This document shows, piece after piece, positions 9,440-15,065 of a stretch of 64,000 bases of DNA. The notes beneath the pieces are model-generated. The model saw only the letters and a program-made list of their open reading frames with translations. It searched no databases and was not told where the DNA came from. Location: NCBI RefSeq assembly GCF_900142515.1, contig NZ_FRBC01000004.1, positions 107,272-171,271 on the forward strand, given 5' to 3'. This DNA is from Pseudoselenomonas ruminantium (lineage in GTDB: Bacteria; Bacillota; Negativicutes; Selenomonadales; Selenomonadaceae). The translations under genes were made by a program, and so were the position numbers. Position 1 is the stretch's first letter. Every line of letters starts with the position of its first letter.

Positions 9440-10486
<1,047 letters not shown>

Positions 10487-10595
10487 AAGCGCAGACGGCG
10501 GCCCGGAGTCAGGGAAATGGCGCTGCCAGCACGGGACGCGCGGCGGCGGATGCTGCGCCGGTCAGGGATGATTGACGGCAGCAAAGGAAGAAAGG

Positions 10596-11036
10596 ATGGT
10601 TTTTATGGGGTGGATCAACGACATCAAGGTATCATTCAAGATCCTCATTCTTGCGGTTATCGCGGCGGTCGCGCTGCTCTCCGTCGGCTATACGGGGTAC
10701 AGTATGCTCGACCAGGCGAACTACCGCATGAGCAAGATGTATAACCAGAAGCTCAAGAACATGCAGTCGGTCGATGAGATGAAGTATCTCATGCGCGACC
10801 TGCAGACGCATGAGCTGAACCTCGCGGACAGCAAGGACGCGGAGGCGCAGCAGAAGAACATCAAGACCATCGAGGGTATCAACAGCCGTTTCCGTGACCT
10901 CATGGACGGTTATACGGAGACAGCAAAGGGGGTCGAGGGCGTACCGGAGCGCGTCGAGGCAGCGAACAAGGCTTGGGACGATTTCTACCAGACGGGCAAG
11001 CAGATCGAATCGCTCGTCAAGGAGCGCAAGAAACAA
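10596..11036 (+). pseudogene. Methyl-accepting chemotaxis protein, N-terminal fragment
   Basis: About 145 codons encode the start of a chemotaxis receptor: a short N-terminal helix, one membrane segment (ILILAVIAAVALLSVGYTGY) and most of a four-helix-bundle ligand-binding domain (with NYRMSKMYNQKLKNMQSVDE). The homology breaks off near 11031. From there the open frame runs on by chance through non-coding sequence and antisense to the next gene as far as 11537. The HAMP and signalling domains are missing, so it cannot signal. ATG 10596 follows AAGGAAGAAAGG (ATG 10605 is also possible). Codon use matches phyA, implying both came together and the insertion broke this gene at its right end. Confidence 0.8.
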
Positions 11037-11125
11037 AGACGATTTTCAGACCGTCTAGTGTCTTGCGCTCAAAATTCCTGTATTTTGCTCTTACTTTTAA
11101 GATATCGTCAAGTTGAAAAGCTAAT

Positions 11126-11168
11126 GGGGCTGTGCATAAGTAATTTCTCACTCATGCAACAGCCCCTT
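11126..11168. repeat. Hairpin carrying the right copy of the 14-bp inverted repeat
   Basis: The segment GGGGCTGTGCATAAGTAA can fold onto TCACTCATGCAACAGCCCC, and its right arm (11155-11168) is the perfect reverse complement of 9012-9025. It may be an element end, or a terminator for the minus-strand gene ending at 11183, since it lacks only a strong T-run. Confidence 0.5.
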
Positions 11169-11182
11169 ATTACCAATCAGAA

Positions 11183-11575
11183 TCATGCGTCCAAGTGTTT
11201 CTCCAGCACGATCACGCCATGTCTGACACAATCATCGCAGGAACAGAGCATCTTGCCGGTCTTGATTCCCTTGAGGTCACCGCAGATGGTGGCACCGCCG
11301 GACATGTCCTCGAATTCCTGCATCATTTCCTTGGCAATCATCTTGCTCGGTTTGTCGGATTTATTGAGCATCCCCAATGCCATGACGGCTCCACAGAAAG
11401 CACCGCAGGTACCTTCCATACCGCCCATGCCGCTGCCGAAACCGGACCCCAAAGCCATGAGTTCCTCTTCGTTCTTGCCGGTTTCTTCAGCAAAGGCCAG
11501 CAATACTGCCTGTGCACAGTTGCATTTGCGCTTGTAAACTACAGCCTGTTCTGCTCTCGTCATCGTATTTTCCAT
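11183..11575 (-). CDS. C_GCAxxG_C_C family protein
   Basis: A 130-residue cysteine-rich protein of the C_GCAxxG_C_C family (also called split-soret cytochrome-like or redox-active family). It shows CNCAQAVLLAF near the start, the core GTCGAFCGAVMALG, and a C-terminal C-x-C-x2-C pattern (LCSCDDC). These cysteines suggest metal or redox binding; the function of the family is not established. ATG 11575 is chosen because AGGAGG lies about 10 bases before it, whereas the longer frame to 11605 has none. The radical SAM gene amrS ends 33 bases upstream in the same direction, so they may be one transcript. Confidence 0.85.
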   Translation of the reverse strand: MENTMTRAEQAVVYKRKCNCAQAVLLAFAEETGKNEEELMALGSGFGSGMGGMEGTCGAFCGAVMALGMLNKSDKPSKMIAKEMMQEFEDMSGGATICGDLKGIKTGKMLCSCDDCVRHGVIVLEKHLDA

Positions 11576-11607
11576 TCTGCTGTTTCCTCCTAAAATATAA
11601 TCCATAT

Positions 11608-12441
11608 CTAACGCACATTTCCTAAATGCACATATGTCAGCTTCTTTTGGGCAATATCCCGGAATTCGTAAAGTTTTTCCAGCGGAGTTGCTGGTGCATC
11701 ATAGCGATAGCGCGGAAAGTAGCGTGACAAATGCAGGGGCAGCTGCTCACTGACTGCAGCCAGCCAATCCACTTCCGCACGGAATTCACCTGTATCATCG
11801 CTGATTCCCGGGACAACCAGCGTCGTAACTTCCACATGCACACCATTTTCCACGGCCATCTTGATGGTACTTTGGGCCAATGCCAAATCGCCGCCTAATT
11901 TCTCATAGGTCAGCGCCGAAAATGTCTTGAGGTCAATATTCATGGCATCCACATAGGGAAGCAACGCTTGCAAAGGTTCGGCCTCAATCTGCCCGTTGGT
12001 CACCAGCACCACTTTCTGGCCTGCCTGCCGCAAGCGGGGTGCCGTATCCAGCAGGTATTCATAGCTCAAGAGCGGCTCATTATAGGTAAAGGCCACACCG
12101 ATGCTGCCATGTTTCACCTTCGTTTCTTGTGCCAGCTCTACCAATTGTTCCGGGCTGATCTGCCATCGGACTTCCTCGGCCCCACCCTGCGAAATCGTAT
12201 AATTCTGACAGAAGCAGCAAGCCATATTGCAGCCAAAGGAGCCCATTGACAGGATGGCACTGCCCGGATGGAAATGATACAGTGGCTTTTTCTCGATGGG
12301 ATCAAGGGCCAGAGACGTGACCTGACCATAGTTGAGGCTCTGTATCATACCCGCCTGATTGCGCCGCGTACGGCAAAAGCCAGTTTGTCCCTCACTGAGC
12401 TGGCAATGGTGGGAACAAAGCCTGCATTCTGCTTTACTCAT
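11608..12441 (-). CDS. amrS: AmmeMemoRadiSam system radical SAM enzyme
   Basis: This 277-residue radical SAM protein has the cluster-binding motif C71-x3-C75-x2-C78 ([11 protein letters not shown]) after an N-terminal Cys set (C6, C9, C13, C23). It resembles pyruvate-formate-lyase activators ([11 protein letters not shown]). It belongs to the set that repeatedly co-occurs with Memo/LigB-like and AMMECR1 proteins, named AmmeMemoRadiSam; the reaction catalysed is not known. ATG 12441 overlaps the end of the LigB-AMMECR1 gene by 8 bases, so the two are translationally coupled. That is strong evidence of joint action. Confidence 0.9.
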
Positions 12442-13819
12442 GTCTGGTCACCGTAAAACGCCATAGTTTCACGGCCTCCTGTGGCCCGATATTGCCCTTG
12501 CGCCGGGCGATGTCCACCTGCTGCTCCACGGTATCCACACCGGCCAAATCCGGCAACAGCAGCCCCCGCCTGTCTCCAGCTTCGACAATCACACCATAGC
12601 GCTTGACGTCGAGTTCATCAATACCCTTGATGGGCTCTGGCACAGACAGCACATCCACATCATAGACAAGATCCGGCAATTCATCTGCGGTGACCGGCGA
12701 AAATCTAGGATCTCCTGTCCCGGCCGATACCGCATTATAGAGGATTTCCTCGGCCAGATTATTTCTCGCTGGCAAGATCGTACCGATACAGCCGCGCAAC
12801 TGACCGTCTTTTTTGATACTGACAAAGGCCCCTGCTTTTTGACCGGCCAATTCCGGCAGCAGCTTATCCGGCAGTGGTGCGCGTTTGCCATGCCGCACAT
12901 AGTATTCCAAAGAATAACGGGCCAGAGCCAGATACGCATCCTCACGCTCGCGCCGTTCCTCCATCTCTGCCCGATGCAGCTGCGCCGCCTGTTCCCCGAT
13001 ATTACGTCTTTCGTCATGATCTGACAGGTCAAATGTCGCCACGGCGTAGCCCACGCCGAAAGGCCCTTCCTGCGCCAGCAGTCTTGCCTCTACCTGATGG
13101 CGGTCCAAGGCACCAGCCATGATCCAGAAGGAACGCAAGCCGCACTCTGCCGCCGAATCTGCCAATTCTGCGGGTGTGGTCAAAAGCTGCAAAAAGTCAC
13201 CAGTTTTAAAGCACGCACCCATGCGTTCATCAAATACCGGCCCAGCAGGATCGAAACCATAAGGGCCATCGGCCTTCAGTTTATGCGACAGGTCGCCACT
13301 GGCCACGAGCACCGCCCGCCGGTTCAATTTGGCCGCCGTTTGGGCAATCAGCACGCCCAAGGCATAGTGTGCATCCCGGGACAGCCCCGACAGGCCAATG
13401 CGGACAATCCTGCCTTTGAACCCCGCCTTTTGCATGAAATACAAGGGAATCATGGTGCCGTGGTCAAGGCCGCCATCCTGTTTCCCCAAGGTGCCGGCGG
13501 GCAGTTTGATTTCATCTGCCATTTTGGTCAAATGGTGGACAAAATCTTCATCATAAGCCGCCCGAAAACGCAGTTCCGGATGAGCAAAGGCCGCAAAGCT
13601 CCCTTGCCCTCCAGGGCCTGACGAAATCTGCAGATAGTCGGCATACATTTTCGCATGAGGGCTGGTGATGATGATGGTTTCGGGTTCTTTGGCCACCACC
13701 CAGGCAGCTGCTTCCTGATAAGCATCAATCGTCGCCTGAATCCCCTTCTCTTCACCGCGCCCAATCTCAGGGATGATGAGCGGCGGATGAGGTACTACAC
13801 AAGTTCCTGACAATGCCAT
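12434..13819 (-). CDS. AmmeMemoRadiSam fusion: LigB-like domain plus AMMECR1 domain
   Basis: The 461-residue product has two parts. Residues about 1-270 form a class III extradiol-dioxygenase (LigB/Memo-like) fold, starting [16 protein letters not shown] and with [20 protein letters not shown] and ASGDLSHKL carrying candidate metal-binding histidines and acids. Residues about 285-461 form the AMMECR1 domain with the invariant LRGCIG motif and [14 protein letters not shown]1 and Memo-like proteins are conserved from bacteria to humans, but the bacterial role is unknown. ATG 13819 has a GAGGTG site. It heads a minus-strand operon with amrS; the opposite-strand permease gene starts 133 bases away, so the two share a divergent promoter region. 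Confidence 0.9.
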
Positions 13820-13952
13820 AGCCTACACCTCGTTTTCCATAAATATAGGGAAATGCACGTTATCCATCAAGTAAATTCTATCATTCACCCTGTCATTACG
13901 CAATGAATTATGTTATACTTTGTTTTTGATTACGGACGAAGGGAGCTTTCCT

Positions 13953-15065
13953 ATGTTTATTTACCAAAAACTGCGCCAGAATCCGGATTTGTCCGTGGCG
14001 CTTGTTTTTGCCCTGTTGACTAGTTTTATTGCCCCGCCGAACCTGGTAGAAATCAGCCAGCGTATCAATATCCCTCTGTTGGGGCTGCTGCTTTTCCTGA
14101 TGTGCATCGTGGCCGGCCTGCGGCTCAGCGGTTTCTTTGCAGCAATCTTCCAGCAGCTCTTCAAAGGCAGTGCTTCAGGACGGCCTTTGGGACGTTTCTT
14201 CATTTTCAGCTGTTATTTCAGTTCCATGCTGATTACCAATGATGTGGCCTTGATCATTTTCGTGCCGCTGGCCATCATGGTCTTCACCGAGGCCCGGCGC
14301 ATCCGACTCATCGTGCCCACAGTCTGCTGGCAGACCATTGCCGCCAACCTTGGCAGCATGCTGACACCGATTGGCAATCCGCAGAATCTCTTCATCTATT
14401 CCCATTATGGACTGGAACCGACGGATTTCCTTGCCATCACAGCGCCCATCGTCCTGCTGAGTGGTGCAGCCATCTATCTGGCCACCTTCCTGCTGCCAGA
14501 CTGTGATGTGCCCTTGCCAGCCCGTCAGGAGGCAGGACTTCCCTGGAGGAAAATCCTGCCACTTCTCGTCCTCTTCGCCCTTTGCTTGCTCCATGTGGTG
14601 CATCTGCTGGACTTCCCTGTGCTGGCGGCAATCGTCCTGCCGGGACTGCTCCTGCTGAACCGCCAGCTGTTCAGGGAAGCGGATTATAAGCTGCTCCTGC
14701 TCTTTGCCCTGCTCTTCATCGGCGTGGGCAACCTCAGCCATATCGAATTCTTTCAGAGCTGGCCGGCAAAGATGCTGGCCGGACATGAGTTCTGGGTATC
14801 CCTGCTCCTGAGTCAGCTCTTGAGCAATGTTCCCGCCACGGTCCTTCTGGCCAGCTATACCGATGCCTATACGCCACTGCTTTTGGGTGTGAATATCGGC
14901 GGGCTTGGCACCATCATCGCCTCCATGGCCAGCGTGATTTCCTTCAAGGCTTACTTGCAGACACGCTTCAGCAAGCCGGGCTATTACCTGTTGACTTTCA
15001 CGGGCAGCAATCTGGCAGTGCTGGCCCTGCTGCTGGGTTATTATTATCTCTATATTGCCGGATGA
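13953..15065 (+). CDS. SLC13 / ArsB-NhaD superfamily anion permease
   Basis: An inner-membrane transporter of about 370 residues with roughly 10-11 hydrophobic segments. The pattern is that of the ion-transporter superfamily: ITNDVALIIFVPLAI in the first half and ANLGSMLTPIGNPQN as the conserved substrate loop, then LSNVPATVLLASY in the second half. These three motifs define the group that includes SLC13 dicarboxylate/sulfate and ArsB-like permeases; the substrate cannot be named from sequence. ATG 13953 sits behind GAAGGGAGC, and TATACT at 13914-13919 is a likely -10. A hairpin with a short T-run at 15077-15105 ends the gene. It is a single-gene transcript. Confidence 0.85.
   Translation: MFIYQKLRQNPDLSVALVFALLTSFIAPPNLVEISQRINIPLLGLLLFLMCIVAGLRLSGFFAAIFQQLFKGSASGRPLGRFFIFSCYFSSMLITNDVALIIFVPLAIMVFTEARRIRLIVPTVCWQTIAANLGSMLTPIGNPQNLFIYSHYGLEPTDFLAITAPIVLLSGAAIYLATFLLPDCDVPLPARQEAGLPWRKILPLLVLFALCLLHVVHLLDFPVLAAIVLPGLLLLNRQLFREADYKLLLLFALLFIGVGNLSHIEFFQSWPAKMLAGHEFWVSLLLSQLLSNVPATVLLASYTDAYTPLLLGVNIGGLGTIIASMASVISFKAYLQTRFSKPGYYLLTFTGSNLAVLALLLGYYYLYIAG

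Follow-up and report, generated by a model that had tools for sequence, protein, structure and literature searches.

Which of the three genes at positions 11183–13819 of the window, the 64,000-nucleotide stretch of Pseudoselenomonas ruminantium DNA analyzed here, form one system, and what could the products of that system do? ORFs and profile searches place a LigB–AMMECR1 fusion, the radical SAM enzyme AmrS, and a C-GCAxxG-C-C protein in the same direction on the minus strand. The original prediction had described a fusion gene, an overlapping radical SAM gene, and a C-GCAxxG-C-C gene, and had read them as an AmmeMemoRadiSam-type locus of unexplained chemistry. The three genes are borne out by the ORFs and by profile scores far above chance, and the assignment is supported by matches that exceed the cut-offs of the AmrS and protein A models. 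The same prediction saw a candidate for an undescribed pathway, which holds for the chemistry only, as the system already has named NCBIfam models (TIGR04335, TIGR04336, and TIGR04337).

The host group is regarded as anaerobic. To our knowledge, no reaction is accepted for the AMMECR1 and Memo families, which are found from archaea to humans. In the portions of the literature that were searched, where the abbreviation AMRs is a confounder, we found no experimental function for AmrS or a bacterial AMMECR1 protein. In a table of PMC13386939, AMMECR1 has the top listed value among the Pfam domains that mark anaerobes.

Gene content of the locus

The fusion gene (12434..13819, minus strand) encodes a 461-aa protein that carries a LigB match (PF02900, 122 bits, residues 7–260) and an AMMECR1 match (PF01871, 146.6 bits, residues 298–458) in a single chain, with the LigB-fold domain extending over residues ∼1–270 and AMMECR1 over residues ∼293–461. 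It scores 121.3 bits against the AmmeMemoRadiSam protein A model TIGR04335 (cut-off 99) and 17.9 bits against the protein B model TIGR04336 (cut-off 26). Elsewhere, TIGR04336 gives 46.4 and 42.2 bits with the fusions L180 and L172 and 28.7 and 25.8 bits with the unfused proteins L174 and L207. The Memo family PF01875 has no match in the window genome (G000) and matches some fusions of other genomes at 28–44 bits (cut-off 27). An AlphaFold2 model of the fusion (pLDDT 94.1, pTM 0.87) aligns with the uncharacterized protein 5hee_A (Z 33.3, 254 residues aligned, rmsd 2.1), the iron-bound extradiol dioxygenase 3vsh_B (Z 28.5, 264 residues, rmsd 3.0), human MEMO1 (7kq8_A; Z 20.2, 230 residues, rmsd 3.1), and the AMMECR1 structure 1vaj (Z 21.7, 167 residues, rmsd 1.8).

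The AmrS frame (11608..12441, minus strand, 277 aa) overlaps that of the fusion by 8 nt, and its product scores 240.1 bits against TIGR04337 (cut-off 220). The radical SAM CxxxCxxC motif (C71/C75/C78) and four N-terminal cysteines (C6, C9, C13, and C23) are invariant in 29 of 29 AmrS sequences. The window protein is a short form that lacks the C-terminal two-CxxC tail, which is found in none of 62 family-group AmrS sequences versus 54 of 59 from outside the family; these counts cover distinct, complete AmrS frames whose profile match reaches position 265 or beyond, and the family group takes in all loci up to L162, including L030 and L054, which are titled as other groups. The tail is also missing from G222 (L240), a genome of the same class. 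Among the papers listed in the literature searches, we saw no account of this short form.

The third gene, annotated as 11183..11605 (minus strand, 140 aa), encodes a C-GCAxxG-C-C redox-type protein (PF09719, 87.6 bits; TIGR01909, 58.3 bits, cut-off 47.4). Its start is more likely at 11575 than at the annotated ORF end of 11605, because an AGGAGG stands 5′ of the ATG there (judged by eye) and the homologue at L161 has a matching in-frame MENT start; the gap to AmrS would then be ∼32 nt. The same three-gene order is present in two relatives of the window's genus, one genome represented by L003 and L162 and another by L161. The nearest named relatives are Selenomonas ruminantium genomes, and the fusion protein of strain S137 (L003) is 91% identical to that of the window.

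Consensus scans, the one basis for both calls, gave a weak σ70-like promoter match 5′ of the fusion (13842..13870, minus strand; 4 sites in 11000–14000 versus 2.6 expected) and a terminator-like stem-loop 3′ of the C-GCAxxG-C-C gene (11037..11056, minus strand; 3 found versus 3.0 expected). Just beyond the 3′ end of that gene, a plus-strand frame (10572–11035) that starts as a 4HB_MCP_1 methyl-accepting chemotaxis protein passes into unrelated sequence at ∼11035, which is probably a rearrangement point. L161 has a methyltransferase-like gene (by eye) at the position of this chemotaxis-protein fragment. A stretch of ∼56 bp with inverted-repeat ends (by eye) occupies 11116–11171, and the whole or part of it is repeated, at 89–92% identity, elsewhere in the genome (contigs C29, C32, and C14). 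Positions 9446–10486 (plus strand) encode a PTP-like cysteine phytase (PF14566), for which the sole NCBIfam match is XopH, at 182.2 bits versus a cut-off of 500.

Joint retention of AmrS and the fusion

The distribution of the genes was followed in 107 genomes of the family and 119 genomes of the phylum, two samples that have G000 and G126 in common. The threshold for AmrS was a minimum of 200 bits; this brings in G116, G117, and G119 (family) and G253 and G223 (phylum) from below the curated 220. Weaker and fragment matches, such as those of G087, G088, and G186, were not counted. AmrS is present in 87 of the 107 family genomes, and all 87 contain AMMECR1; five genomes have AMMECR1 alone and 15 have neither (Fisher p = 2.1e-14, with kinship ignored). 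In the phylum sample, both are present in 90 genomes and neither in 28; AMMECR1 stands alone in one (G177), and AmrS never does. Among the control genomes, Haloferax volcanii has AMMECR1 and no TIGR04337 match, and Thermus composti has a TIGR04337 match, possibly under the cut-off, and no AMMECR1.

Within the family, this co-retention is observed for linked and unlinked pairs. When genes within 4 kb of each other on one strand of a contig are taken as linked, the fusion precedes AmrS in 47 genomes, the order is reversed in three, and the pair is unlinked in 37 of 87, a figure in which contig ends may have split some pairs. Four genomes (G127, G149, G120, and G138) have the two genes 30–371 kb apart on one contig. 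AmrS adjoins the fusion in 24 of 80 fusion loci, several of which end before it could show, and exceeds the cut-off in 48 of 50 genomes (50 of the 80 loci). In each of genera g1, g3, and g8, some genomes have both genes and others have neither. AmrS is interrupted by ∼1.8 kb of extra DNA in G088 of g8, and in G087 of the same genus, a genome without AMMECR1, it lies in two adjacent pieces. At L159 (G153), two full AmrS genes and a fragment are found within ∼9 kb, and the fusion is on another contig.

Retention without linkage in the family, together with joint loss within genera, points to one shared function of AmrS and the fusion in trans, and the expectation that these two proteins belong together is upheld by the presence of AMMECR1 in every AmrS-containing genome of both samples. 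In the phylum, AmrS is directly downstream of the fusion in 86 of 90 pairs, upstream in two, and elsewhere in two, one of them in G126 of the window's genus. Because 88 of these 90 pairs are adjacent, co-retention in the phylum may in part be inheritance as one block, and it is only the Selenomonadaceae sample that tests co-retention free of linkage.

The arrangement in the window is the ordinary one for its phylum. All listed full-length AMMECR1 matches of the 107 family genomes are in frames of at least 394 aa, four frames of 52–70 aa being partial matches. Among the 91 of 119 phylum genomes with AMMECR1, the best match is in a fusion-sized frame (at least 380 aa) in 81, and this count and the downstream position of AmrS make the earlier description of a compact form misleading. 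Second, low-scoring AMMECR1 proteins (85–99 bits, frames of 250–372 aa) occur in G157, G200, G228, G238, G261, and G268. Unfused neighboring LigB-like and AMMECR1 genes were found as two pairs, L174 and L207. It had also been claimed that the fusion shows its domains to act on the same or successive substrates; the fusion makes this likely, but the unfused neighbors mean that "shows" was too strong.

The C-GCAxxG-C-C gene, proposed earlier as a companion and as a redox partner or substrate, is distributed differently from the pair. Its family occurs in 78 of the 107 family genomes and shows no association with AmrS (p = 0.58), being present in 62 of the 87 AmrS genomes and in 16 of the 20 others. 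A co-occurrence search among these genomes found it within 1 kb of AmrS in only three of 87 (the window genome, G124, and G128), all of one genus. The original prediction had named a lack of linkage elsewhere as one half of its refutation, and within this family that half holds. Close orthologues of the window protein (11 matches, 61–72% identity) had neither AmrS nor the fusion beside them in the loci read; one, at 63%, is in G125, a genome without AmrS and without AMMECR1. Those of four g1 genomes (L260–L263) share a neighborhood with a two-component pair (by eye), and the others differ. From the orthologues elsewhere, G125 included, and the rarity of linkage, we conclude that this gene, which within the family is neither generally linked to nor co-retained with AmrS, is a lineage-specific neighbor and not part of the system. 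The AmmeMemoRadiSam identity of the pair and the bystander status of this gene are, in our judgment, very probable. The notion that the C-GCAxxG-C-C protein stands in for the lost AmrS tail was rejected as a general idea because the tail is missing from every family-group AmrS while the gene is so seldom linked.

Predicted metal site of the LigB domain

In an alignment that combines 52 sequences of the family with 37 of the phylum, H11, H55, D119, H179, and C226 are invariant (52/52 and 37/37) and D176 is conserved in 88 of 89. Residue 225 is Glu in 80 of the 89 sequences, His in five, Gln in three, and Asp in one, and H120 is replaced by Lys in three, all of them among the 52 family sequences. 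H11, H55, and E225 align with residues 13, 62, and 251 of 3vsg_B (profile alignment, positions counted by hand), and PMC11081632 lists these three residues as the ligands that bind iron there. The alignment and the published ligands indicate, therefore, that the fused domain has the dioxygenase triad positions with an adjacent invariant Cys, in place of which two dioxygenase alignments have Gly and Val.

By fold and alignment, the domain has the LigB fold and 2-His-1-Glu ligand positions of an extradiol dioxygenase, metal binding itself being predicted. The likeness to class III extradiol dioxygenases (2-aminophenol 1,6-dioxygenase, 3vsh) thus lies in the fold and in the positions of H11, H55, and E225, whereas the window protein differs in its fusion to AMMECR1, in the invariant Cys beside the Glu, and in coming from bacteria taken as anaerobic. 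Human MEMO1 shares the fold and the PH, SPH, (D/E)H, and DxxH motifs. Its iron ligands are given as H49, H81, and C244 in PMC11081632, with Cys in the third position, whereas the window protein has Glu there and Cys beside it; the window genome also differs in its lack of a PF01875 match.

A Memo-type His-His-Cys site was favored at first for the invariant C226; it then lost its place as the leading interpretation, since the residue matched to the dioxygenase iron ligand is E225 and not C226. Six standalone Memo proteins (L163–L168) have Asp in the third-ligand region (by eye), a comparison that did not settle the choice between a Memo-type and a dioxygenase-type site. These proteins look like a different, secreted Memo subfamily, to judge from their sequences; each has a hydrophobic or lipoprotein-like start and is preceded by a similar-looking gene (both by eye).

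Second fusion copies in genus g5 have His at position 225 in all seven read (L143–L145, L148, L150, L154, and L156), and no AmrS was found in the fetched loci. In three of the His-225 genomes (G065, G066, and G074), no AmrS match approaches the family score. In a separate alignment of 98 sequences, Cys-344 of AMMECR1 is missing from two: it is Arg in a Glu-225 copy that G074 also has, and Thr in the AmrS-linked copy of G067, where a second copy is present. At L144, the His-225 paralogue is just 3′ of a cassette matching Shango SngA, SngB, and SngC and 5′ of a methyltransferase gene, and L150 has a similar frame layout.

Candidate functions of the pair

The locus holds a known system in its usual phylum form, with one component rejected and a few new details, namely the triad positions and invariant C226 in the LigB part and the tail-less AmrS. 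Like AmmeMemoRadiSam, it matches the AmrS and protein A models, and the A and radical SAM components are co-retained; unlike it, the B component is a fused LigB-type domain, below the TIGR04336 cut-off in the window protein, and the window AmrS has no C-terminal tail. At a probability of about 0.55, we favor a two-protein AmmeMemoRadiSam-type system in which AmrS and a LigB/Memo-fold metal domain joined to AMMECR1 serve one substrate. Several findings stand against it: AMMECR1 occurs without AmrS in five family genomes, G177, and H. volcanii; T. composti has its TIGR04337 match without AMMECR1; residues 225 and 120 vary; and the window protein falls short of TIGR04336.

A specific mechanism for this two-protein system can be offered tentatively, and we hold it to be possible at somewhat less than even odds. 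The LigB domain would hold Fe(II) through H11, H55, and E225, beside C226, and AMMECR1 would present or select the substrate. AmrS would then generate a 5′-deoxyadenosyl radical that acts on the substrate of the LigB domain or on its immediate product. Elsewhere, the LigB fold draws on O2 for redox modification of a kind that the pair might carry out in its absence. The C-GCAxxG-C-C gene would be a clade-specific operon neighbor, dispensable for the pair.

Neighboring genes were clustered for 80 fusion, 21 AmrS, and seven paralogue loci of the family, with the many clusters of shadow frames left uncounted, and no third gene adjoining either the fusion or AmrS was found to recur from genus to genus. 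As read, these neighborhoods reflect lineage-specific synteny only, so that they give no pointer to a substrate. Some Selenomonadaceae fusions adjoin fmt-like or other translation-related genes (named by eye). In 40 phylum loci, ribosomal-protein and truA-like genes are upstream in 15–17 and argC-J-B-D-like genes downstream in 12–19 (also named by eye). These loci were picked mostly for linkage, and a simple gene caller missed the fusion in two of them (L227 and L250); the unbiased linkage figure is the 90-pair phylum count. Because of the naming by eye and the way the loci were picked, the phylum neighborhood is not proof of function.

Modification of an RNA or nucleobase, in which the pair would act on a base of tRNA or rRNA, draws on these ribosomal-protein, truA-like, and fmt-like neighbors. 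A connection of the Memo clade with the modification of nucleotide bases and isoprenoids is attributed to Burroughs et al. 2019 (J Biol Chem). PMC7159879 supports this account, and a table in PMC6393860 links archaeal AMMECR1 to a PIN/Zn-ribbon protein. Ribosomal neighborhoods are, however, kept for many reasons, and no neighbor recurs across genera in the family; we regard this alternative as unlikely.

AmrS could instead be an activase that modifies the fusion itself, for example at the LRGCIG loop of AMMECR1 or at C226, after which the fusion would be the working enzyme. The nearest PDB sequence match of AmrS is pyruvate formate-lyase activating enzyme (E = 3.6e-11), and its fold is also closest to that enzyme (3c8f and 8fo0; TM 0.69–0.70, versus at most 0.61 for the rest among the 50 matches listed), with which it shares the radical SAM core. 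An activase would be expected never to occur without its target, and AmrS at 200 bits or more is never without AMMECR1 (87/87 and 90/90, in samples that share two genomes); all 52 family sequences have R342, G343, and G346. However, archaeal AMMECR1 structures (1vaj and 1zq7 alignments) share the LRGCIG loop, so that it need not be tied to AmrS, and C344 is lost both from AmrS-less G074 and from the AmrS-linked copy of G067. Compared with pyruvate formate-lyase activating enzyme, AmrS has an extra N-terminal four-Cys motif and a family model of its own, and it scores 51.5 bits against TIGR02493, the PFLA model for glycyl-radical activases, far below the cut-off of 231.75. We consider the activase proposal quite unlikely.

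A bolder version of the favored two-protein system takes the fusion as an extradiol-dioxygenase-fold iron enzyme re-fitted for anoxia, in which the AmrS radical replaces O2 at a 2-His/Glu/Cys center and human MEMO1 and AMMECR1 are the O2-using counterpart. This version is speculative and, on balance, improbable; if true, the His-225 paralogues, with no AmrS nearby in 7/7 loci and three AmrS-less genomes, would be a version freed from the radical partner. A three-gene system with the C-GCAxxG-C-C protein as redox partner or substrate of AmrS, suggested by the co-directional, closely spaced genes in the window, G124, and G128, can be set aside as very improbable given, within the family, the linkage in one genus, the presence irrespective of AmrS, and the orthologues elsewhere.

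For the two-protein system, H11, H55, E225, and C226 of the fusion and the N-terminal cysteines of AmrS are named as targets for mutation. The genomes with unlinked pairs, those with His-225 paralogues, and the joint losses within a genus provide natural comparisons. One bacterial family is thus seen to retain AmrS and the AMMECR1 fusion jointly without needing linkage, and a false third component is removed from the system.
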